Positions 14,492 through 37,159 of a stretch of 64,000 nt of DNA are shown here, piece after piece. The notes below the pieces were generated by a model that saw only the letters and a list, made by a program, of their open reading frames with translations, made no database searches and was not told the DNA's origin. Positions within the stretch are counted from its first letter, which is position 1, and every line of letters begins with the position of its first letter. The DNA comes from an uncultured bacterium (GTDB lineage Bacteria > Verrucomicrobiota > Kiritimatiellia > CAIKKV01 > CAIJXV01): assembly GCA_903824675.1 (NCBI GenBank), contig CAIJXV010000055.1:1-64000 (forward strand). The letters are read 5' to 3'. Made by a program: the position numbers and the translations under genes.

Positions 14492-14728
14492 GACTGTTTC
14501 TCCTGTTAATGACTTTATTTTATACGTTGTTGGAGCGATGATATGCAAGATTTTAAAAATATGATTTTTTTAACCACCCGGCTCATCCGGCGTAAGGACG
14601 GTGACTGACGCGCCTCTCGCGGCGCAACTACAAGCTGGAGAGCGCGGTTGGTAGTAGGCGCGCGTGAGCGCTGTTCGGGAATCCGGCAATAACGCCAGAC
14701 CGATGGGCTGGCTCGGAGGGCGATTGCC

Positions 14729-25498: not shown

Positions 25499-25550
25499 TG
25501 TTCCCGTTACCCCAATACCAGACCCGGAGAGGTTCGTCTCCTCCGGATGG

Positions 25551-25690
25551 GGCTGGGGTCCGCTGATCCAGCTCGCTCCATCTCCCGACGCCCGCCACAG
25601 AAGGGCGGGCCGACATCGATTGAAAACGGTTGGTGTAAACGACCTTTAGGCGGTTTCTGTGCACCGAATCGCAGATGCGTCGCTTTTGCA
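25551..25690 (+). repeat. Intergenic twin-hairpin repeat with extra module
   Basis: This is another copy of the family seen at 167-635. It lacks the first hairpin but keeps the second (GCCCGCC facing GGCGGGC near 25590-25608) and the tail GACATCGATTGAAAACGG. It goes on with a segment ending in GAATCGCAGATGC, shared with the inverted copy at 10139-10309. It lies between the PHP gene and the MFS transporter and pushes an open frame into the MFS gene, which is a chance extension. Confidence 0.75.
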
Positions 25691-25744
25691 GTGCCGGGTG
25701 AAAAGCAAATTGTTATTTCGGGTCATTTGGGGTTAAATGACCTG

Positions 25745-27133
25745 ATGAATTCATCTGCTCCGGCGCCGGTTATGCCACGCGGTGTGACCAATGCCTATCT
25801 GTTTCAGATTTTTAATTCGTCATCCTGGTCCTTCATCCTGGGCACTCCCATGCTCCTGTTTCTCAAGAGCATGGATGCCTCGGCGACAACCCTGGGCGTG
25901 ATGGTCGCCATGACCCCGCTGTTTGCGGCGCTCCAGATACCGGCGGCCAATTTTGTGGAAAAAGTCGGGTATAAGAACTTCGTCGTCCGGGGTTGGGCAT
26001 CCCGCAGTATCTTCATCCTCGGCATTGCCATTGTCGCCCTGCTGCCGGACCATGTATCTCCCACTCTCCGGATTTCACTGACCCTTTTGATGCTGGCCTG
26101 TTTTGCGGCGGCCCGGGGGGTTTCGGTTTGCGGGTTGATGCCGTGGATGACGCAACTCATTCCCGAGCCCCTCCGCGGCACCTTCATTTCCCGCGATGTC
26201 ATGTGCATGAACCTGGCCCTGACCGGCACCATGCTGGTATCCAGTGCCTGGGTTGGCATCTTTCCCACAACCCGCACGTTTGCCGCCCTCTTTCTGTTCA
26301 GTTACCTTTCCGCGCTGGTCAGCGTGGTGTTTTTACGCCGGATTCCCGATGTTCAGTGTGTCAAACCGCGCGAAAATCGACTCCGTCCGCCTTGGAAAGA
26401 GATGCTCCTCTTTCCGCCTTTTCGGAAATATGTCCTCTACACGGTGGGATTCAACTTTTTCGTTTCCTCACTGGGCGTCATCTGGGTGCCGTTCATGAAG
26501 GACGGTTTGCATGCGTCCGGAAGCCTGATCCTGGGGCTTTCGGCCTATGCCAGTATTATTTGCGCCCTGGTCTCGCGATTGATCGGTCCGGTCATTGACC
26601 GCACCGGCAGCCGCCCCCTCATGGCGTTCTCCAGCGCCTTGATCCTGATTTCCCAGACAGTCTGGATGCTGATCGCCGCAGGGCTGCTCCCCGGCGATAC
26701 CTGGGTCCTGTTACTGCTCGTTCCCATCGGTGCCGCCGGTTACACGATTCTCGGCCTCTCCAGCACCCGTTTGTTAATGGCGTTGACGCCCGTGATGGGA
26801 CGCAGCCATTTCTTTGCCATCTCCAGTGTGGCCGTCAGCCTCACGATGGGGTTGATGCCCATTGTCTGGGGTTTCACGCTGGACGGCCTGACCCGCCATC
26901 TCGGGGGTGGTTTTGCTTTTTTGCCCGGATGGACCTGGACACCCTACAGTCTCTTTTATGCGCTGGTGATCAGCGGCACGCTGGCCGCTCAATTTTTACG
27001 CCGCCGACTCGATGAACCCCGGGCCATGTCCACCGAAGAATTTCTGCGCATCCTTCTCATTCAGTCCCCGGCCCGCCTGACGACCTGGGTCTTATCTCCG
27101 TTGCGCAATTTTCAACTGCCCGGCGGGGGATGA
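25745..27133 (+). CDS. Major facilitator superfamily transporter
   Basis: The 462-residue protein has twelve hydrophobic segments in two six-helix halves with a central cytoplasmic loop (PRENRLRPPWKEML). It shows the loose MFS pattern of R/K-rich turns between helices 2-3 and 8-9 (VIDRTGSRPLMAFSS). Substrate is not evident. It resembles in general plan the MFS protein at 46157, which also sits in an operon with other envelope genes. The ATG at 25745 is chosen because earlier codons fall in the intergenic repeat. It ends in FQLPGGG, 7 bases or so before the mobile element that begins at 27137. Confidence 0.75.
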   Translation: MNSSAPAPVMPRGVTNAYLFQIFNSSSWSFILGTPMLLFLKSMDASATTLGVMVAMTPLFAALQIPAANFVEKVGYKNFVVRGWASRSIFILGIAIVALLPDHVSPTLRISLTLLMLACFAAARGVSVCGLMPWMTQLIPEPLRGTFISRDVMCMNLALTGTMLVSSAWVGIFPTTRTFAALFLFSYLSALVSVVFLRRIPDVQCVKPRENRLRPPWKEMLLFPPFRKYVLYTVGFNFFVSSLGVIWVPFMKDGLHASGSLILGLSAYASIICALVSRLIGPVIDRTGSRPLMAFSSALILISQTVWMLIAAGLLPGDTWVLLLLVPIGAAGYTILGLSSTRLLMALTPVMGRSHFFAISSVAVSLTMGLMPIVWGFTLDGLTRHLGGGFAFLPGWTWTPYSLFYALVISGTLAAQFLRRRLDEPRAMSTEEFLRILLIQSPARLTTWVLSPLRNFQLPGGG

Positions 27134-27136
27134 GGG

Positions 27137-27372
27137 GGGGTGTAAGACAAATTCCGGAGAAATAGGGAATCGTCTTCTGATGCGGCTTGCGCCTATATGC
27201 CAGAGAAGCCGTGCGATACGCCCGGCTGTACTGAGAGGCAGAGGCCCGTAGAGCCAGACCTATGGGATGGCTTCGGGGCGCATTGGGAGTGGGGCTTGGT
27301 TTATCGATATATCGTTCCGCGCAAACAAAAAACGAGCCTTTCTTTTATTTCTCCGAAATTTGTCTTATACCC
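27137..27372. mobile_element. Miniature inverted-repeat element, copy 1
   Basis: This is a non-coding unit of about 236 bp bounded by inverted repeats of about 27 bases: the left end is GGTGTAAGACAAATTCCGG, and the right end is its complement with a few mismatches (ending GTCTTATACC). The 8-base sequence GATGAGGG stands directly outside both ends (27129-27136 and 27373-27380), as expected for a target duplication. The interior is shared almost base for base with the copy at 30768-31003. It has no transposase; an open frame across it is not protein-like. This fits a MITE mobilised by a transposase encoded elsewhere. Its IS family is not known to me. Confidence 0.85.
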
Positions 27373-27454
27373 GATGAGGGACTGGCGCGAATAACGGGCT
27401 TGTGTTTAGGGCCCTGTTCAGGCAACATTTTCGCAAGGAATTGGAGACCGGCTT

Positions 27455-27946
27455 ATGAATGTTGACCCCTTGGCGCCCCGTAGCCCGCATGAAACCGCAT
27501 TAACCCTGACCCAACTGATGCAGCCTGAGCACTCCAACAGCCTGGGCAACGTGCATGGCGGTGTAGTCCTTAAACTCTGCGACGAATGTGGCGGGATCAT
27601 CGCGACCCGCCACGCCCGCCGTCCGGCGGTGACCGTCACCGTGGATAGCGTGAACTTTCTTCAGCCCGTATTGCTGGGGCGGTTGGTATTGGTGCATGGC
27701 CGCATCACCTGGGTCGGCAATACCAGCATTGAGGTCGAGTTGCAAGTGGAGACCGAACATCTGCTCACCGGCGAACGGGTGCTCACCAATCGCGCCTATT
27801 TTGTCTATGTGGCGCTGGATGAATTCCATCGACCGGTGCGCGTTCCACGCCTGTTGCTCGCCGACGAGGAGGCCCGGCGCCATTTTGCGGAGGGTGAGGT
27901 TCGCAAGCAGCGGCGCCTGGCCGCCGCGGTTCCCAAAGGCGCATGA
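27455..27946 (+). CDS. Acyl-CoA thioesterase, hotdog fold (YciA-like)
   Basis: The 163-residue hotdog-fold thioesterase hydrolyses acyl-CoA thioesters. The N-terminal LTQLMQPEHSNSLGNVHGGVVLKLCDE matches the YciA/BFIT branch, where HGG and the Asp/Glu two turns on build the active site; a long central strand TVDSVNFLQPVLLG follows. The start has TGGAG about 9 bases upstream. It overlaps the GNAT gene by 4 bases, so the two are coupled. The hydrophilic C-terminal extension (EARRHFAEGEVRKQRR) is common in this branch. Confidence 0.88.
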   Translation: MNVDPLAPRSPHETALTLTQLMQPEHSNSLGNVHGGVVLKLCDECGGIIATRHARRPAVTVTVDSVNFLQPVLLGRLVLVHGRITWVGNTSIEVELQVETEHLLTGERVLTNRAYFVYVALDEFHRPVRVPRLLLADEEARRHFAEGEVRKQRRLAAAVPKGA

Positions 27947-28638
27947 CGAACCCGATTACCATCCGTCCGTACCGATCGGCTGACCGCCCGGCGGTGCGCC
28001 ACATCGCCTGCGAAACGGCAGACCGGGGTCAGCCCGTCGAAAATCTCTATTCCGACCGCGAATTGATTGCCGATCTGGTCACTCGTTACTCTACCGATTT
28101 TGAGCCTGAAACCAGCTGGGTTGCGGAAGCCGACGGAACCGTCATCGGCTACCTTACAGCCGCGGTGAACTCGCATCGTCACCACCGCATCATGGTTTGG
28201 CGGGTTGCGCCGCCCGCGATTGGTCGGGCCCTCCTGCACGGCGCCCTGGGTCGGCGGGAGACGTGGCGGATGTTGGCGGTTCTTCGCCGTAATCTTCGGA
28301 AATATGCCCAGCGTCGGCACGTTTCTCTGGACGGTTATCCGGCCCATCTGCACATCAATCTTCTACCCGGGTTTCGCGGCCAGCAGATTGGCGAACGGCT
28401 CATGCAGGTTTTTGGGGCGCGAATGGAGGCCCGGCAGATCCCCGGCGTGCAGGCTGCGGTGCGGGCGGATAACCCGGCCGGCTGCGCGTTTTTTGAACGC
28501 ATGGGATTCCGGCCGGTCGCTGACTACGAGGCCATTCTGCCCACCCGCGGGGGCGTACAAAACGTAAGGACCCTTCTGTATGGCCGAAGCCGCAGTGCGA
28601 GCCCGTCTGCCGATCTCCCGCGAGGTCGCCATGCCTGA
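27943..28638 (+). CDS. GNAT-family N-acetyltransferase
   Basis: The 231-residue protein has the GNAT fold: TIRPYRSADRPAVRHIA at the N-terminus, then the acetyl-CoA site LLPGFRGQQIGERLMQVF (the R/Q-x-x-G-x-G/A loop), then VRADNPAGCAFFERMGFRPV, the usual late motif. A helical insert with many basic residues lies between about 85 and 125. The substrate is unknown. Translation is coupled to the thioesterase (ATGA overlap). The last 19 residues (RSRSASPSADLPRGRHA) overlap the start region of the next gene in another frame. Confidence 0.82.
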   Translation: MTNPITIRPYRSADRPAVRHIACETADRGQPVENLYSDRELIADLVTRYSTDFEPETSWVAEADGTVIGYLTAAVNSHRHHRIMVWRVAPPAIGRALLHGALGRRETWRMLAVLRRNLRKYAQRRHVSLDGYPAHLHINLLPGFRGQQIGERLMQVFGARMEARQIPGVQAAVRADNPAGCAFFERMGFRPVADYEAILPTRGGVQNVRTLLYGRSRSASPSADLPRGRHA

Positions 28639-29035
28639 TCGCTCGACCGTGATCAGCCTGCTGCAGACCTTGCGTCGCTATCTGACTGTGGGCGTCGGGA
28701 GCGCGATTACCGATCTGGGGCTCTACGCTCTTCTGACCCATGGGGCGGGGATGGATCCGGTGTTTGCCAACTTGATCAGCCGGCCTTGTGGGGGGCTTTT
28801 CAGTTTTACCGTAAACAAACTGTGGACGTTTAACCGGCGCGAATTGCGGGGAACCTCATCGGAGTTTCTCCGGTTTTGCCTGGTCTGGTTGGCCGCCTAT
28901 ACGCTATCCGAAAGCCTGATCTGGCTTTTTACCCGCCAGTGTCATTGGGGACCCTTGCACGCCAAGATCCCGGCCGAGGTCGTGACCGGTATTTTCAGCT
29001 TCATCTTCCTGCGCTTCTGGACCTTCCGCAAGTAA
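28631..29035 (+). CDS. GtrA-family membrane protein
   Basis: The 134-residue protein has four transmembrane helices: RRYLTVGVGSAITDLGLYALL, then FANLISRPCGGLFSFTVNKLWTF (the family signature SRxxxxxxSFxxNKxWTF), then two more, ending FIFLRFWTFRK. GtrA-like proteins are thought to flip lipid-linked glucose or related sugars across the inner membrane for surface polymer decoration. A start 17 codons earlier (28580), with AAGGA 9 bases upstream, is possible but would overlap GNAT by 59 bases; I prefer the ATG at 28631 (overlap 8 bases, GAGG 5 bases away). It is the last gene of this small operon. Confidence 0.85.
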   Translation: MPDRSTVISLLQTLRRYLTVGVGSAITDLGLYALLTHGAGMDPVFANLISRPCGGLFSFTVNKLWTFNRRELRGTSSEFLRFCLVWLAAYTLSESLIWLFTRQCHWGPLHAKIPAEVVTGIFSFIFLRFWTFRK

Positions 29036-29092
29036 TTCAGGAACTCTGCAACTACGGAATTCGCGAAATACCTGAAGGGACAGCGGGGGCCC

Positions 29093-30667
29093 TTATTTCT
29101 GTGTCGCGCAGAATTCAATCAGACAATCATAGACCAACCCGGCGTTCTTGGCTGCGCTTGAGGGGGTCTCACTACAGGCCAGCCAGTCGGCGTAGCGCCG
29201 CTTCAGATGTTGCGCCCAGGGAATCAGGGATGGATTGGCCTGGCCGTTGAAAATCAGGCCGGCCAACCACGCGTGTTGGACTTGGAAATAGCCCGCGGAT
29301 AGCCAGGGTTCGATGTATTCAAACCCCCGGGGAGCGGTTTGGAGGAATGCGGCGAGTTCGGCCAGAGCGGGAGGAAATGATCGGGCGATCTGACGGTGTT
29401 GCTCGCGCAGGTCGGCGAGCTCAGCCGGGTTCTCGTGTTCCAGGGTGGTGATTCGCTGGGCGATATAGTTCGGGGGCGCCGGGAGAGAGTCTTTCCCCCG
29501 CGACCACTGGATGCCCGTGGTGCCGGAGCCTGCGCCTGCGAATCCTTTGCCCAGCGCCAAAGTCGCCTGGATGAAAGGGGCTGGATCGATTCCGAAGAGG
29601 TCGGATCCGATTTCGGCTAGCAGGGTGGGGACCGGTTTTTCCGGATGGCGGAGGGCTTGGGGTGCCAGTCGCAGAATCAAGTCCTGGGTTTCCATCGGAT
29701 TCAGCCGGACAGCCCAACTGGTCACACACTGACCGAGCAACCCCGCCCGGGCCGTTTTACGCGCAACTCCCGCCACATTTTGATAATGAACTTCGAAATC
29801 GGGACAGAACACACTATCGCCATGCGAGCGGGCGGAGGAGCAGAGGATGACGTCGAATCCCGCGTTCTTGAGAAAATCGGCGGTATAGAAAGGAACGAGA
29901 TCACCGGCGGCGTCGACAATGGAGGGGTAGGCGGCCCGGATTTTTGGGGTGAGTTGATCCTTGTTGATGACCCCCTGGTTCCAGACTCGCGTTCGGGTAT
30001 TGGGCTGGTCGAAGCTCCAATAATTCCAGTCCCAGATAACGAAATCCTTTGGGATGTGATTCATTTCGGCGGGATAATGGAGCACCATATCGCACCAGAT
30101 ACCGGGGCGGACACCCCGGGCGAGAATGGGGCCGGCGAGATCCCGGATATGTTCGGCATAGAGCTGGTTGCGACTGTGCGCTTCGGCCTGGCGGACACAC
30201 TCTGGGCAGGTGGCAAAAGCATAGGCTTCGTCGCCGCCGAGATGGAAATAGCGGATGTTTCCAAAAAGATCCAGGTATTCCTCGATCCATTTCTTAAGGA
30301 AGGTCCGCACTTCAGGACGGGAAGTGCAGTAGCAAGTGTGTTCATCCGATCGTTCGCGGAAAGAATGGTATTTTTCCTGGAGAAGCACGTATTCCCCATG
30401 CCCGATGGTTTGGAGGAGAGGAATGGATTCCAGCCCCAGACTGGAGGCAAAATCTAGAATTTCCCGAAACTCCGATTTCGACAGGGCTTCCGGCCACACG
30501 CATTCCGGACAGGTCGACCAGCGGATCTTGTCTTCAAGTTCCCACAAGATGCCGGTATAACCCATTCCGGCAAGTTTCTTGAGCCACCCGCGGATATAGG
30601 GTGCGGGCAGGCAGGTGAAATTGAAATCCATGTGGAAGAGGGTCAGGGGAGAGGATTTGACGGGCAT
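29093..30667 (-). CDS. GH20-like beta-N-acetylhexosaminidase
   Basis: The 524-residue protein has the GH20 core. After LFHMDFN and a barrel opening (GWLKKLAGMGYTGILWELED), the catalytic Asp-Glu pair is in YFHLGGDEAYAF (about residue 150), with the Asp assisting the substrate acetamido group and Glu as acid. WDWNYW and CSSARSHGD follow in the C-terminal half, and a helical C-terminal region (about 370-524) is typical. No signal peptide is seen, so it is probably cytoplasmic. The start at 30667 follows AAGGAG 6 bases upstream; a longer frame to 30718 lacks support. Amino-sugar release would complement the fucosidase and NamZ-type enzymes in this window. Confidence 0.8.
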   Translation of the reverse strand: MPVKSSPLTLFHMDFNFTCLPAPYIRGWLKKLAGMGYTGILWELEDKIRWSTCPECVWPEALSKSEFREILDFASSLGLESIPLLQTIGHGEYVLLQEKYHSFRERSDEHTCYCTSRPEVRTFLKKWIEEYLDLFGNIRYFHLGGDEAYAFATCPECVRQAEAHSRNQLYAEHIRDLAGPILARGVRPGIWCDMVLHYPAEMNHIPKDFVIWDWNYWSFDQPNTRTRVWNQGVINKDQLTPKIRAAYPSIVDAAGDLVPFYTADFLKNAGFDVILCSSARSHGDSVFCPDFEVHYQNVAGVARKTARAGLLGQCVTSWAVRLNPMETQDLILRLAPQALRHPEKPVPTLLAEIGSDLFGIDPAPFIQATLALGKGFAGAGSGTTGIQWSRGKDSLPAPPNYIAQRITTLEHENPAELADLREQHRQIARSFPPALAELAAFLQTAPRGFEYIEPWLSAGYFQVQHAWLAGLIFNGQANPSLIPWAQHLKRRYADWLACSETPSSAAKNAGLVYDCLIEFCATQK

Positions 30668-30767
30668 TCGGGTCTCCTTGGAATAAACATAGTCATTGCG
30701 GTTACTGACGGCCAACAATGCATATTCTTAACCTATCAGGGGACGATACGCACGCGTTTTTGTTCGT

Positions 30768-31003
30768 GGGTGTAAGACAAATTTCGGAGAAATAGGGAAT
30801 TGTCTTCTGATGCGGCTTGCGCCTATATGCCAGAGAAGCCGTGCGATACGCCCGGCTGTACTGAGAGGCAGAGGCCCGTAGAGCCAGACCTATGGGATGG
30901 CTTCGGGGCGCATTGCGAGTGGGGCTTGGGTTATCGATATATCGTTCCGCGCAAACAAAAAACGAGGCTTTCTTTTATTTCTCCGAAATTTGTCTTACAC
31001 CCC
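30768..31003. mobile_element. Miniature inverted-repeat element, copy 2
   Basis: This is the second copy of the element at 27137-27372, in the same orientation and about 3.6 kb away. Its terminal inverted repeats are a perfect 27 bases (30768-30794 and 30977-31003, ends GGGTGTAAGACAAATTTCGG and its complement). Outside the ends lies a 15/16-base near-repeat, CGCGTTTTTGTTCGT (30753-30767) and the same with one extra T (31006-31021), suggesting an insertion-related duplication or an older target repeat. The interior is nearly identical to copy 1. It sits just upstream of the promoter of the giant gene at 31097. Confidence 0.87.
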
Positions 31004-31029
31004 TCCGCGTTTTTTGTTCGTTTTACACC

Positions 31030-31065
31030 TTGTTGAGCAGGCGTTTTGGGTGTATTATTACCCAA
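31030..31065 (+). promoter_or_regulatory. Promoter and palindrome upstream of the first giant gene
   Basis: TTGTTG (31030-31035), 17 bases, then TATTAT (31053-31058) make a good sigma-70-type promoter, giving a leader of about 30 bases before the ATG at 31097. TTGGGT (31046-31051) and ACCCAA (31060-31065) form an inverted repeat straddling the -10, a typical repressor-binding position. The -35 lies 27 bases after the end of mobile-element copy 2, so the insertion has not disrupted it. Confidence 0.45.
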
Positions 31066-31096
31066 ATTAGGCGGAAATCTAATAGGAAACATTACT

Positions 31097-34000
31097 ATGA
31101 ACTACTGTTCCCTTCGATCCTTCATCCGTGCCGGATGGTTCGTGTGGTTTTTCATCCTGTTCTCCCTATGTGCCACGGTTGCCACCGCACAGGAGAATTT
31201 TACGACTTGGAATAAGCGGATGTCGATCACCCTCTCGGGTTACACTCCCCCGGCGGTCGCTGAAACCCTGACTAATTTTCCCGTTCTGGTGGTCTTGAGC
31301 AATACTCCGGCCGGATCCGGTTTCAGCTATGCCGACTTTCTCACTCCGCCCTATGGGGATCTGCGTTTTTCCACCACGACCAATGGCACCCCATTGAATT
31401 ACGAGGTGGAGACGTGGAATACGAATGGCAATTCCTTCATCTGGGTCCAGGTGCCGGCGGTGACCGATGCGACCACCACGATTTGGGCCTTTTGGGGCAA
31501 AGGCGCAACTCTGCCGGTCTCGGCCACAAATGGCGCGACTTGGTCTAATGCCTACCTGGGCGTCTGGCACATGGCGACCAATACGTCGGCCATGACCGAT
31601 TCCAGTACGAATCGACGCGGCAGTGCCGTTTCCGGGACCATTGCGACGGTTCCAGGCATGGGGGGAAATGCCTGCGATTTTACGCCCACCGCCTATTTTT
31701 CGGCCTCCAATAATTTTCCGGCCTTGGCGACGTCTTACACGGTTAGCGCGTGGATCAATATGGATGCCAATGCGAGCAACTTCATGGGAATTGTCGGTGC
31801 TTACAATAACAACAATTTTATTTTAGCGCTAACGGGCACCGTTCGGTATCTCTCCTTTTTTGACACCGCCTGGCGAACCAGCAGTAACACCCTCCCGAGC
31901 GGCGCCTGGAAACACGTCGGTTATACCCGCAGTTCAACCACGGGTGTGTTTTATGTGAATGGCACCCGAGTCTTTGCCGTTACCAATGCCGTTGCAAGTG
32001 CCTTGGGCGGTTTATTGCAAATCGGGAACGCCGGATCAACGTGGATTAATCCGTTTGACGGACGAATCGATGAAGTGCAGGTGTCGAGTGTAGACCGAAG
32101 CTCGAACTGGATGTCCGCCGCCTATCTGAGTCTGGCAAACAGTGCCTTTGTGACTTATGGCAATTCGGATAATGGCGGCCGGCCGGTGGTTTCCAATGAC
32201 ACAGCGGTAAGCGATATGTCCGGTGTGGCAACCGTGAATGGTATATTGGCTTCGACCGGATCGGGGACCGACACCAAGGTATTCCTTCTCTGGGGGACGA
32301 CCGATGGCGGGCCGACCTTTGGCGCCTGGGCCAACACGAATCAATTGGCGGACGGCACGCCGGTGGGGCCGATCAGTTGCGGGGTGACCGGGGTGATCGG
32401 GGCCACCTATTACTATCGTTACTATGCCACCAATTCGATCGGCGATACATGGGCGACTCCGGCGCTGACCTTTTCGGTCGGCCTGTTGCCGGTGACTAAA
32501 ACCTGGAGCGCCACGGCTGGATCGGACAGCAATTGGTTTGTCGGGTCGAACTGGACGCCAGCAGGCGTGCCTACGACTGGCGACGTGGTCCTCATCGATT
32601 CCTCGATGTCCACCATTACCAATATTTCCCTGACCAATTCGACGGATATGCTGGGGGCGCTGATCATTTCGAATCGGTATCTGACCTGCTCTAACTGGAC
32701 GACAACGATCAATGCGACGAATATTATCATTCGCAGCGGGGGAGTCATGCGGCTTCCCGGTCCTTCCATCACGAATGCGATGACCAACATTATTCACCTC
32801 GTGTGTTCCAATTTAACGATCGACGCCGGTGGGTTTATCAATGCCGATTATGGCGGTTACTGGGCCAGCCAGGGGCCGGGCAAAGGGAATGGTGCCAATG
32901 GAACAGCATCCGGCGGTGGACATGGCGGCAAAGGGGTGGATACGGGGACAAGTGCCGGTGGCGTGACGAACGATGTGCCAGATGCGCCCACATTGCCGGG
33001 GAGTGGCGGAGCCAAATACCTCACCGAAACCAATGGGCATGGCGGAGGAGTGATTCGGATCGAGGCGACCAATATTGTCGTCAATGGAACCGTTTCTGCC
33101 GATGGTCAGGGAGGTGGACAATATTCGGGCGGTGGTGCGGGCGGATCCATCTTTATTACTTGCAAAACATTTGGTGGCGGAACGAGCGGGGTCATTCGGG
33201 CGCGCGGCGGATATGGAGGATATGGCAATCAAAATTCCGGCGGAGGCGGTGGTCGGATCGCCATTATCTACGCCGTGCCACCGGTGAATGTGGGAGTGCA
33301 ATACTTCGCCGCACCCGGAACGAAATATGCGGGGGGAGGATTTGGGACACTCTATCTTCCAGACACCACTCTGGTGCGTTCCCCATTAACTACCTTTCAA
33401 TCGGTGCGACTCGTGATTCCCAATTTCAATTCCTGGGTCTCCGATTCACTGGTCGTCAGCAACTGTATGGTGTCGTTCGGCGACGGTGATTTCACGCTCA
33501 CAGTTTCCAATAACCTGACGATCTGGAGCAATTCCTGTCTTGCCTTGGGTGGAGTGGCCTTGAGTGGAACGCAAGCCCTGGCCGGCGTTACAGCGACCGC
33601 CACCAACCCGATCATCAATATCGGAGGGAGTGCCTATTTGGCGGGCGGGATGACGGTCGGAGGAGCAGGCCAGATTAACCGTATGGAAATGTCCATTGAA
33701 TCAAACCTGACGATAGCGGGGGGTGCCTTGGTGATCGGCGGCAGTCTCCAGACCAAGGATTCCATCTTGAACGTCACGGGGAATTTGACTTTGACCAACG
33801 CAGGATATCTGACCGCCTGGAGCGGTCGAACGAATTTATTCCCGAGTTACGGCGGACGGGTTGGGGTTTCCGGGTTGACGTCGATCGCGACCAATTCCTG
33901 GATCATTTCTGGATCTCATCCTACCAATGGGGCGACGGTTTTGTTTGATTTAAAAGATCTGATCATTCAACCAGGGGGTGGCTTTGACGCCACCGCGAAG

Positions 34001-37000
34001 GGGTTTGCTTGGAATGGGGTTGTTTGCAACGGTCCGGGGAAGGGCAATACAACGGGCGGTGCTCGTGGCTCGGGTGGCGGTTATGGCGGGCTCGGCGGAT
34101 CGAATGGGGTTTCTGGCGGGATCACCTATGGAGTGTCGAATGCCCCGCTTACGCCGGGAAGTCCGGGAGGCTATGGTCATGTAACCGGCATCGCACAGCC
34201 AGGTGGAGGGGCAATCCGGATCAATGCGGGCATGCTGACTCTTAATGGTACGATTATGTCGACGGGCGGGTCGGGTGGGGGATATGGCGGGGGAGGATCG
34301 GGCGGCGGCATTTTCATTACCTGCACCAATATCAGCGGCGCAGGGGTTGTGACTGCCATTGGAGGAAGTAGTTTGGGACAAGGGGGCACCCCGGCGGGTG
34401 GAGGAGGTGGGGGTAGAATCTCAATTGGCGTAGGATTATCGGATGCCGCTATCTCCAACTTGATCGTTGGTTCAGCGGTCAGCGGATTGGTCAATTACCG
34501 GACGGATTCGCGATTTTTGGGGACACTCTCTGCCTCGAATGGGCTTCCAACCGTGAGTGGCTTTCCCGGCGCGACCGGGACCTTTCAGATTGTTGCAGTC
34601 AATTCCTCATCATTGACGATCAACGGGTTCCCCAGCCCCTTTGGCCATCCACACCCTGATGCCTATGGAACGGTATTCACCTATGGGCAGGACTCTTGGG
34701 TGACCAATACGGTTTACAGTCCGGATGATGAGGCTAACGGGATCCGTCACGCCTGCCTCGGTTGGGAACTCAGGACCATCGGTGGCGCGTTATCCAACAG
34801 CCTGGCCACGACCCAGGCGGTATTCAAGTTGACTGAAAATCTGATTCTGAATTGGTATTGGACCAATCAATACAGCCTGGCCATTGCAGCGGGACCCAAC
34901 GGCTCGGTCAACTCGGGCACGATTAATAACTGGTACACCAATGCCTTTGTCGTAACCGGCATCCTCGCCACCGCCGATTCGGGCTATAAGTTCGATCAAT
35001 GGACAGGCAGTGCGGTGCCCGCAGGGCAGGAGACCAATAATCCGCTGACGGTCACGATGGATCGGGTGCGAACCAATATCCTGGCCAACTTTGCCGTCCT
35101 TGGCGGTACTACAAAGACCTGGACTGGAGCTGGTGTTTGGGAAAGTCCGACGAATTGGACCCCTTCGGGCATGCCGGGCATTGACGACACGGTGATTATC
35201 CAATCGGGTACCAGCATTCTTTCCAGCGCCCGGCAGTTTGCTTACGTGACCGTGAGCAATGGCGCAACGCTGATGTTCACGAACTGGAACACGTCGCTGA
35301 CCGCCAGCAATATAACCGTACTGCCCACCGGTACAATCACCTTGCCGTTGGCGTTTTCAAACAACGTCATGTCAAATCGGGTCTATCTGATCTGCACCAA
35401 TTTTATTTTGGAGGCGGGCGGCCAGATTCTGGCGGATGGGCGCGGGTATGCGGCCGGACAGGGACCCAGTGCCGGTACGGCACCCGGTAGCCGCGGCAGT
35501 GGAGGCGGGCATGGGGGGCGCGGCGGCGACAGTTATGGTACGGGTGGAGTGACGAATGACTCGTCCATCGCGCCCGAGGCTCCTGGCAGTGGCGGCGGGT
35601 ATTTTGACGCTACGGGCGGCGCGGGTGGCGGCGCGGTGCGGATCAACGCATCCGGGAACGCCGTGATCAACGGTAATATCTTTGCCAGCGGGCAGGATTC
35701 TGTCAGCTATGGCGGCGGCGGTGCGGGTGGGGCGGTCTGGATCAGTTGCACCACGTTTTCCGGGACGACGGGAGTTATCCGGGTCAACGGGGGCAAGGGT
35801 GGGATCTATTCCCCATCGGCGGCGGGTGGGGGTGGCAGGATTTCGATTGTTTACGGCAGTCTCGCCGGGACAGTAGGTGTTCAATTCTCCGCTCTTGCGA
35901 GTTCTGAATACTATACGTCTGTTGCCCTGCCGGCCGGCATGGGCACCTTATATTTGCCGGACACTGCCCTCCTCGCGAACGGAGTGGGCTTGTTTAATGG
36001 ACTCCGGCTGAACATTCCGGGTTTCAATTCGTGGAATATGGATAGCCTGACGTTGAACAACCGTTCGCTTTCGTTTGCGGATGGGGATTTCCGGCTCACC
36101 ATAACGAATAATCTAACCCTTCAAAATAATGCATGGCTGGCCTTGGGCGGGATCGCTTTAAGCACCGGCTATTGTGATGCCGCCACCTCATCCCAGACGA
36201 CTTCGCTAGTCATCTCGGTGGGCGGAAATGTCGTACTCGACGGGAGCATGCTAACCATGGGAGGCAATGCGTCTACGTCGCTGTCGACGATGGCGGTTGG
36301 CAGCAATCTGACGCTGATGAATGGCGGGCAATTGTTTGTCTACAGCGGAACGACCAACAATACTCGCGATTACGGGGCGCTGGTCAACATTGCCGGCAGT
36401 CTGACCATGACACCCACAAACTCCTGGATTTTCCCCTTTGCCCAACCAACAAATGGCGGCGCGCCCCTGTTCAAGGCCCGCACCCTGGTGGTGTCCTCGA
36501 ATACGGGATTTAATGCCGATTTCATAGGCTTTAAGACTCATCGTGGCCCAGGAGTGGGCGGCGGGTCCGGCAGTGGCTCCGGCGGTGGAGGCGGGTATGG
36601 AGGGCAAGGAGGGCATGGTTCCGGATTGAATGGCGGACCTGCTAATGGCTCGACGAATATTCCGATTCGACCGGGTAGTGGGGGTGGCGGTACCTATGAT
36701 GAATTCGGCGGTAACGGAGGAGGGGCCATTCGTCTGGAACTGACCGATACCGTGACTTTGAATGGGACATTGACGGCGAACGGACAGAATGGCGGAACCT
36801 ATAACGGCGGCGGATCCGGCGGCGCCATTTTTATCATGTGTGGCGGCACTTTTGTGGGCGGCACCTCAGCGGTGCTGCGCGCCAATGGGGGGAACGGCGG
36901 CTCTGGGTATACCAACCTCGGAGGGGGTGGGGGTGGCCGGATTTCCATCGTGACGGGCGTACCCGAAGAGACCCGGATTGCATTTTCAACCGGTAGTAAT

Positions 37001-37159
37001 ACTCAATTGGTTGTCTCCCAGGCCCAAATCAAGACCTACCTGGGGTCCACCAACGTAGTGGGTGGCACGAATGTTCTCTTGGCCGCCTTTGGGCAGACCG
37101 GCACCATGGTGTTCTTCAAATACAATCCGTCTCCGGGCACGATTTTCATTTTGCAATAG
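31097..37159 (+). CDS. Giant secreted protein with DUF2341, LamG and glycine-rich modules
   Basis: The 2,020-residue protein starts at 31097 (AGGAAA upstream) with a signal peptide ending about TVATAQ. Residues 35-155 resemble DUF2341, a beta-sandwich found in adhesins, followed by a LamG-like domain to about 335 (FDGRIDEVQVSS). Then come glycine-rich modules at about 32.83-33.29, 33.96-34.44, 35.40-35.87 and 36.49-36.96 kb. Each has GPG-x-G, GGG-Y/H-GG, PGSGGG, a strand I-x-x-NG, GGGGSGG and GGGGGGRI-x-IVY. Between modules 2 and 3 sits an InlB-like repeat (ending WTGSAVPAGQETNN). The same order occurs in the gene at 52575. No autotransporter barrel, sortase or PEP-CTERM signal is seen. A surface or matrix role is likely. 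Confidence 0.75.
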   Translation: MNYCSLRSFIRAGWFVWFFILFSLCATVATAQENFTTWNKRMSITLSGYTPPAVAETLTNFPVLVVLSNTPAGSGFSYADFLTPPYGDLRFSTTTNGTPLNYEVETWNTNGNSFIWVQVPAVTDATTTIWAFWGKGATLPVSATNGATWSNAYLGVWHMATNTSAMTDSSTNRRGSAVSGTIATVPGMGGNACDFTPTAYFSASNNFPALATSYTVSAWINMDANASNFMGIVGAYNNNNFILALTGTVRYLSFFDTAWRTSSNTLPSGAWKHVGYTRSSTTGVFYVNGTRVFAVTNAVASALGGLLQIGNAGSTWINPFDGRIDEVQVSSVDRSSNWMSAAYLSLANSAFVTYGNSDNGGRPVVSNDTAVSDMSGVATVNGILASTGSGTDTKVFLLWGTTDGGPTFGAWANTNQLADGTPVGPISCGVTGVIGATYYYRYYATNSIGDTWATPALTFSVGLLPVTKTWSATAGSDSNWFVGSNWTPAGVPTTGDVVLIDSSMSTITNISLTNSTDMLGALIISNRYLTCSNWTTTINATNIIIRSGGVMRLPGPSITNAMTNIIHLVCSNLTIDAGGFINADYGGYWASQGPGKGNGANGTASGGGHGGKGVDTGTSAGGVTNDVPDAPTLPGSGGAKYLTETNGHGGGVIRIEATNIVVNGTVSADGQGGGQYSGGGAGGSIFITCKTFGGGTSGVIRARGGYGGYGNQNSGGGGGRIAIIYAVPPVNVGVQYFAAPGTKYAGGGFGTLYLPDTTLVRSPLTTFQSVRLVIPNFNSWVSDSLVVSNCMVSFGDGDFTLTVSNNLTIWSNSCLALGGVALSGTQALAGVTATATNPIINIGGSAYLAGGMTVGGAGQINRMEMSIESNLTIAGGALVIGGSLQTKDSILNVTGNLTLTNAGYLTAWSGRTNLFPSYGGRVGVSGLTSIATNSWIISGSHPTNGATVLFDLKDLIIQPGGGFDATAKGFAWNGVVCNGPGKGNTTGGARGSGGGYGGLGGSNGVSGGITYGVSNAPLTPGSPGGYGHVTGIAQPGGGAIRINAGMLTLNGTIMSTGGSGGGYGGGGSGGGIFITCTNISGAGVVTAIGGSSLGQGGTPAGGGGGGRISIGVGLSDAAISNLIVGSAVSGLVNYRTDSRFLGTLSASNGLPTVSGFPGATGTFQIVAVNSSSLTINGFPSPFGHPHPDAYGTVFTYGQDSWVTNTVYSPDDEANGIRHACLGWELRTIGGALSNSLATTQAVFKLTENLILNWYWTNQYSLAIAAGPNGSVNSGTINNWYTNAFVVTGILATADSGYKFDQWTGSAVPAGQETNNPLTVTMDRVRTNILANFAVLGGTTKTWTGAGVWESPTNWTPSGMPGIDDTVIIQSGTSILSSARQFAYVTVSNGATLMFTNWNTSLTASNITVLPTGTITLPLAFSNNVMSNRVYLICTNFILEAGGQILADGRGYAAGQGPSAGTAPGSRGSGGGHGGRGGDSYGTGGVTNDSSIAPEAPGSGGGYFDATGGAGGGAVRINASGNAVINGNIFASGQDSVSYGGGGAGGAVWISCTTFSGTTGVIRVNGGKGGIYSPSAAGGGGRISIVYGSLAGTVGVQFSALASSEYYTSVALPAGMGTLYLPDTALLANGVGLFNGLRLNIPGFNSWNMDSLTLNNRSLSFADGDFRLTITNNLTLQNNAWLALGGIALSTGYCDAATSSQTTSLVISVGGNVVLDGSMLTMGGNASTSLSTMAVGSNLTLMNGGQLFVYSGTTNNTRDYGALVNIAGSLTMTPTNSWIFPFAQPTNGGAPLFKARTLVVSSNTGFNADFIGFKTHRGPGVGGGSGSGSGGGGGYGGQGGHGSGLNGGPANGSTNIPIRPGSGGGGTYDEFGGNGGGAIRLELTDTVTLNGTLTANGQNGGTYNGGGSGGAIFIMCGGTFVGGTSAVLRANGGNGGSGYTNLGGGGGGRISIVTGVPEETRIAFSTGSNTQLVVSQAQIKTYLGSTNVVGGTNVLLAAFGQTGTMVFFKYNPSPGTIFILQ

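Follow-up and report, generated by a model that had tools for sequence, protein, structure and literature searches.

An insertion between two open reading frames

The window, by which we mean the whole 64,000-nucleotide stretch of DNA analysed, carries a short element downstream of an open reading frame (ORF) at 25547-27133 that is transporter-like by eye. This ORF ends in a TGA stop at 27131-27133 and is followed on its strand by an ORF that begins at 27455. A sequence-only reading had described a 236-bp MITE at this place, with long inverted ends, no transposase and an 8-base target duplication. The features of the site, together with the second copy of the same family in the window, are:

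27129-27137, no strand: left copy of the 9-bp target duplication, GATGAGGGG, from flank comparison
27138-27372, plus strand: MITE of family A, 235 bp, with no ORF of at least 80 aa inside
27138-27164, plus strand: left terminal inverted repeat, GGGTGTAAGACAAATTCCGGAGAAATA, 27 nt
27346-27372, minus strand: right terminal inverted repeat, 27 nt
27373-27381, no strand: right copy of the 9-bp target duplication, GATGAGGGA, identical to the left copy at 8 of 9 positions
30768-31002, plus strand: second family A copy in the window, found by blastn, target duplication absent (2/9)

The inverted arms are 93% complementary over their 27 nt, and placing the ends symmetrically (GGGTGTAAGAC...GTCTTATACCC) gives an element of 235 bp, where the earlier reading had 236 bp. 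The 8-base repeat GATGAGGG, at 27129-27136 and 27373-27380, is real but is best read, in line with other copies and with relatives, as the identical part of two flanking 9-mers, a match at 8 or more positions having a probability of 1.1e-4 for a random 9-mer pair at equal base frequencies. The lack of a transposase was confirmed, no ORF reaching the limit set of 80 aa overlapping 27138-27372. Folded as RNA, the element strand reaches -101 kcal/mol (z = -5.5 against shuffles). As the stop codon of the upstream ORF sits within the left duplication copy, the insertion leaves the protein of that ORF unaltered, and its coding effect, between the stop of one ORF and the next ORF, looks mild. Scanning 26900-27500 for promoters and terminators gave nothing above chance, and a search of 26000-32000 against Rfam (E<=1) found no match in the element and one sub-threshold CRISPR-repeat match outside it. 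The second window copy has CGCGTTTTTGTTCGT to its left and CGCGTTTTTTGTTCGT to its right, imperfect direct repeats of ~15-16 bp (30751-31020) that may point to recombination or to an older event. Beyond it, at 31046-37159, is a 2037-aa ORF that has numerous glycine-rich stretches and is surface-protein-like by eye.

Copies in the genome and their target duplications

The genome of origin (hereafter the own genome, G000) is an assembly of 4.24 Mb in 124 contigs, 96% complete. The copy count called for earlier came to seven near-full-length copies at >=96% identity by blastn, the window element included. Pairwise identity among these ranges from 95.8 to 99.1% with a mean of 97.1%, and to judge by this identity family A would have spread recently. 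There is also an older copy (C67, 74%) along with partial relics. The family A end sequence occurs four times in the window at <=3 mismatches, where 100 shuffles gave 0.00 on average. Across the own genome, an 18-mer of the end matched 34 times at <=2 mismatches versus once for the reversed control, and a 17-mer at <=3 mismatches 42 times versus 10.

Other short families with the family A ends occur in the same genome. Family B, with an inferred length of ~393 bp, is known from pieces or copies on C57, C74, C58 (two), C1, C93, C104, C75, C44 and C111, most of which break at contig ends, and from a 140-bp deletion form at C104:9696-9835. Family C measures 292 bp (C95), and family D 228 bp at C61 and 246 bp at C19. 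Stricter or longer queries gave no match outside this genome: an exact 20-mer of the end had no match in the assembled genome contig collection, a 19-mer at one mismatch had none outside the own genome among 97 genomes, and the element itself had none by blastn against plasmids and phages.

Target duplications in the own genome were scored on a set of 12 contiguous two-ended elements, namely the seven recent family A copies, C67, the 140-bp C104 form, C95, C19 and C61:69743. End-like sites form many chance pairs; pairs were kept where both ends fitted the known end sequence, and among those passed over was one alternative left end for C19. Nine of the 12 carry a duplication. Seven match in register at 7 or more of nine positions (the window element, C55:27138, 8; C108 9; C75 8; C43:7508 7; C104 8; C19 8; C61 7), and the other two do so after a one-base shift (C43:12843, 9/9; C32, 7/9). 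The duplication is missing at C55:30768, C67 and C95 (2/9 each in register). It should be considered that a random 9-mer pair reaches 7/9 with a probability of 0.0013, and that permitting shifts makes this several-fold higher. In relatives, six of nine two-ended MITEs have flanks that agree at 8/9 or 9/9 (two of three in G009, one of two in G016, three of four in G067). From the 9-mers at broken contig ends we also infer pairings within family B, C93 with C104 (9/9), C57 with C74 (8/9) and C58 with C1 (8 bases with one base lost). G009 holds, separately, elements of 432-754 bp whose ends read GGGTGTAAGACA[AG]AATTCTGA (L149 3295-4048, L155 3283-3890 and L153 3860-4291), two of the three having a duplication of 8 or 9 of 9.

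These data bear directly on whether the element moved at all. The window could hold a long palindrome produced by local duplication or recombination, and the second window copy, lacking a target duplication, speaks for this; but the seven copies lie at different sites, six of them with 9-bp duplications (two after a one-base shift), and the end sequence is common to other genomes of the class. We regard an origin without transposition as hardly credible. Insertion by transposition, as first proposed, is supported by the seven recent copies, by the 9-bp duplications and by the transposase-bearing kin in other genomes described below. The features expected of a prokaryotic MITE are all present: short length, inverted ends, no transposase gene, and several copies with duplications.

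ISKra4-family ends and transposase-bearing relatives

The sequence-only reading had assigned the ends to no IS family, and this question is now largely answered by a link to the ISKra4 family. An 18-mer of the end (<=2 mismatches) was sought in 345 genomes of the class and found in 19, own genome included. The search for the ISKra4 transposase model NF033572 covered 12 of these 19 end-bearing genomes and matched in six of the 12. At four loci the distance from the transposase match outward to a GGGTGTAAG[AT]CAAA end is 53, 53, 53 and 77 bp (G058, G047, G084 and G006, respectively), and the end in G058 equals the 17-nt consensus end with no mismatch. Across all 29 NF033572 matches, these four loci have the GGGTGTAAG[AT]CAAA end, 14 a variant, GGGTGTAGGACAAGAAAG, two a poor hit and nine none; the 14 loci with the variant overlap and all come from G027, the loci without such an end include three of the four G006 genes, and the G120 match, where its contig breaks off, has no such end sequence. 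Since the end is missing or variant at most ISKra4 loci, it is typical of one subgroup and not of all ISKra4 genes.

Complete elements were recovered around some of these genes. In G027, which is nearly closed (two contigs), there are elements with the variant end, one of them a complete copy of 1765 bp with a 9/9 duplication. Searching the assembled genome contigs with the G084 protein gave four loci (L198, L199, L200 and L201). L199, on JAHJJH010000304.1 of a Verrucomicrobia MAG, is a complete 1765-bp element with the ends GGGTGTAAGCCAAGAAAG / GGGTGTAAGTCAGATCTG and a 9/9 duplication, GAGGACAAA. L198, the G084 contig, likewise has 1765 bp between two such ends, the left one reading GGGTGTAATTCAAGAAAGG, but its flanks are mismatched, so that this copy lacks the support of a duplication. 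No such end was found at L200, and at L201 just a 6-mismatch hit. L199 and L183 are both complete ISKra4 elements of 1765 bp, with similar ends and with duplications exact over 9 bp; in all, three elements of the family in different genomes have this length:

L199 111-1875: 1765-bp ISKra4-family element
L183 1420-3184: 1765-bp ISKra4-family element
L198 2486-4250: 1765-bp ISKra4-family element

By hmmscan against NF033572 the L170 protein scores 243 bits and the L183 protein 229 bits, the cut-off being 205. In all three 1765-bp elements the transposase lies in two frames, with a shift of -1 at a stretch of eight A residues; that of L183 changes frame once more and looks defective. The ISMich2 group is characterised by a transposase split over two ORFs that a -1 frameshift joins (PMC3942029), a feature seen in the partner elements and not in the MITE. 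For ISKra4 (p-MULT 4) the same source gives inverted repeats that are 18-39 bp long and share a conserved C at the terminus, and direct repeats of 8 or 9 bp (PMC3942029). The family A element has 27-nt arms with GGG...CCC ends and direct repeats matching at 8/9 in the window and 9/9 at C108. It also shares the outer 16-17 nt of its ends with the ISKra4 elements. Unlike these, it is 235 and not 1765 bp long, has no transposase and an unrelated interior, and no partner was found in the same genome.

How closely a given MITE derives from such an element differs between families. Three MITEs of G067 match L198 at the left end (38-39 nt at 82, 79 and 74%) and G058 at the right end (23 nt at 100, 100 and 96%); resembling both of the unequal ISKra4 ends, they are the likeliest direct derivatives of ISKra4 elements. 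Family A has the IS right-end sequence on both sides, and its homology to the IS stops after the terminal 16-18 nt, which leaves an origin of family A by internal deletion unsupported.

A transposase of this family was sought in the own genome too. The searches covered ISKra4 (NF033572 and a four-sequence ISKra4 profile, A1) and Y1 (PF01797) transposases; there was no match to NF033572 at E<=0.001 and none to A1 at E<=10. Both searches were also empty at these thresholds in the other MITE carriers G009, G016 and G067. Elsewhere profile A1 matched 39 positions in G017 at E 6.7e-5 and also gave a hit in G036 at E 0.08. The terminal inverted repeats checked at contig ends of the own genome (C57, C58, C93, C75, C1, C74 and C104) all belong to family B, and hence an ISKra4 IS is not hidden at any of them. 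The own-genome MITEs look orphaned, or dependent on a gene missing from the assembly; the transposase may have been lost or left unassembled. The full-length partner with matching ends that the earlier reading proposed to look for was therefore found in relatives, and was absent from the own-genome searches. The simple duplicated hairpin held in reserve there, for the case of neither relatives nor an end-matched transposase, is not what was found, both being in existence. With no ISKra4 transposase in the element or in the own genome, we file the element as a MITE with ISKra4-family ends and not as an IS.

Taken together, we read the element, with a probability of about 0.9, as a non-autonomous MITE with ISKra4-family ends (Mutator-like DDE type), moved in trans and carrying a REPIN-like passenger. 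An ISKra4-family transposase acting in trans would bind the GGGTGTAAGACAAATTTC ends, mobilise the element and insert it at a target whose strands are cut nine bases apart, and repair would then give the 9-bp duplication. A circular transposition intermediate would be expected, as in related families (PMC3942029). The own-genome copies, too, would have been moved by a transposase of this family. That another family of Mutator-like transposases, for example IS256 or ISLre2, moves the MITE, the match to ISKra4 ends being convergent, would fit the lack of an ISKra4 transposase in the own-genome searches, and related Mutator-like families also give 8- or 9-bp duplications (PMC3942029). However, matching ends lie beside ISKra4 transposase genes in four genomes, and the G067 MITEs resemble both unequal ISKra4 ends, which makes this alternative improbable.

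The REP-dimer-like core

Inside the MITE is a 66-bp REPIN-like core (27207-27272) that the sequence-only reading had missed: a pair of 21-nt hairpins inverted relative to each other, whose GTAC and GTAG tags face one another. Its parts, and the corresponding core of the second window copy, are:

27207-27227, plus strand: hairpin A (AGCC...GGCT), from layout search and alignment
27228-27251, plus strand: stretch between the hairpins, with GTAC at 27228-27231, a 16-nt spacer and GTAG at 27248-27251
27252-27272, plus strand: hairpin B (AGCCAGACCTATGGGATGGCT), from layout search and alignment
30837-30902, plus strand: core of the second window copy, a covariance-model match

The core layout was found as 31 distinct sequences among the own-genome loci examined, and a covariance model, R1, was built from an alignment of 22 of these 31; the core at 27207-27272 matches at 75.4 bits. 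In the own genome R1 gave at least 108 matches at E<=0.01 among the best 150 of 2074 candidates, the tail including partial units, and many of these matches lie in tandem arrays. In 16 other genomes of the order, none of the best 150 candidates in each reached E<=0.001. In the 22 aligned cores the tag at hairpin B is GTA[AG] (GTCA in one row) and that at hairpin A is GTAC or ATAC. The two inverted palindromes of ~20-40 nt in high copy that define a REPIN are thus seen here as two 21-nt hairpins, with weak support from covariation.

Covariation was considered as proof of hairpin function and rejected. Pairing is retained in 89.6% of cells, both sides changing in two of 17 pairs, and the covariation score of 0.069 exceeds all 500 shuffles; but slid controls score nearly the same (0.062 and 0.068), and two other measures were reached by 208 and 500 of the 500 shuffles. 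Conservation of the core fared similarly. The core is present and identical in all seven recent family A copies, where 18 of 236 alignment columns vary, 0 of 66 in the core versus 18 of 170 in the arms (P = 0.002, a post hoc test). In the old copy C67 the core is 81% and the arms 77 and 82% identical, with no contrast between them. With the P value post hoc and the C67 core kept no better than its arms, we do not take core conservation as strong proof of function.

Evidence on whether core and MITE belong together comes from loci that have one of them. The MITE arm occurs with no core match at C95, C42 and C116 (C42 and C116 being one-ended), array copies of the core match the element over the core part only (blastn, own genome), and seven of eight further core loci have no MITE end at <=5 mismatches within the 1-2.5 kb taken. 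With arm found lacking core and core lacking arm, MITE and core are separable modules. Within the preferred reading, the interior would be a passenger hairpin pair, either inserted into a MITE ancestor or captured, that then spread with the MITE.

The source of this passenger is less certain. Instead of a RAYT-type REPIN, the hairpin pair may be a piece of MITE origin that was multiplied afterwards in tandem minisatellite arrays. We give this origin of the core a substantial minority share of the probability: no hairpin-flanked RAYT gene was found, the core is contained in the seven recent and several old MITE copies, many other core copies lie head-to-tail with periods of ~52-80 bp, and one core locus with no MITE end found (L236, C55:72802) resembles by eye a decayed MITE. 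Against it, the inverted hairpins with facing GTAC and GTA[AG] tags have the layout of GTAG-type REP dimers (PMC3733652), and so do the separability data just given argue, that is, the core-only matches of array copies, the seven loci with no MITE end and the arms that lack a core. A further suggestion, which we offer tentatively and consider rather doubtful, is that REP dimers use the DDE-type MITE as a vehicle and so spread by a second route that needs no RAYT, with the core held constant through a function for element or host, such as a protein-binding or RNA-stabilising site.

The own genome has two RAYT-like genes, whose NF047646 scores of 65.6 and 60.8 bits fall short of the cut-off, 80. 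No core hairpins were found at either locus within the flanks examined, each locus being cut by a contig end. By eye, both genes (L106 793-1788, L107 1432-2469) have GGGACA.GTTAATAG-type motifs nearby, unrelated to the core hairpins. These sub-cut-off genes and the REP-like interior could suggest that the whole element is a terminal-inverted-repeat element of a tyrosine (RAYT/TIRYT) transposase, as for some REP-associated transposases. We consider this very unlikely, because the ends match those of DDE-transposase elements and the RAYT-like loci, in the flanks examined, have no core hairpins. Target duplications, moreover, are not known from Y1 transposases.

Compared with REPINs and GTAG REP dimers as described in PMC3733652, the core is alike in its inverted short hairpins, in its facing GTAC / GTA[AG] tags and in its many copies and clusters. 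It is unlike them in being enclosed in a DDE-type MITE in seven recent copies, in having GTAC and not GTAG as its first tag, and in that no core-bordered RAYT gene was found. The closest parallel is in Anabaena variabilis, where GTAG-15 REP dimers lie regularly inside longer palindromes, or inverted repeats (PMC3733652), so nesting as such has precedent. As far as the relevant part of that paper goes, the outer palindrome there was not found without the REP, and target duplication is not mentioned. The outer element here, unlike that of A. variabilis, is a MITE family with transposase-bearing relatives, its arm also occurring without the core. Among the open-licence papers listed by our literature searches, none describes the element in its title, and a passage search of the MITE review PMC10969869 found nothing on ISKra4, REPIN, RAYT, REP sequences or Verrucomicrob-. 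We conclude that the MITE is genuine, that its ends are of the ISKra4 family and its core is REP-dimer-like, and that it is of a known kind, in a combination absent from the literature searches made.

An end sequence that recurs in the class and is linked to a known transposase family allows short elements to be annotated in little-studied genomes. In addition, one unit here combines two kinds of miniature mobile DNA, the REP-like dimer lying within a DDE-type MITE, and this nesting opens to testing the question of how REP dimers spread when they lack a cognate RAYT. Elsewhere in the own genome, tandem arrays of hairpin pairs or single hairpins with periods of ~50-80 bp occur on C123, C14, C51, C89, C105, C20 and C67, several of them at contig ends, and another stretch of the window, 14667-14713, matches the hairpin-pair model weakly (31.7 bits, E = 0.0011).
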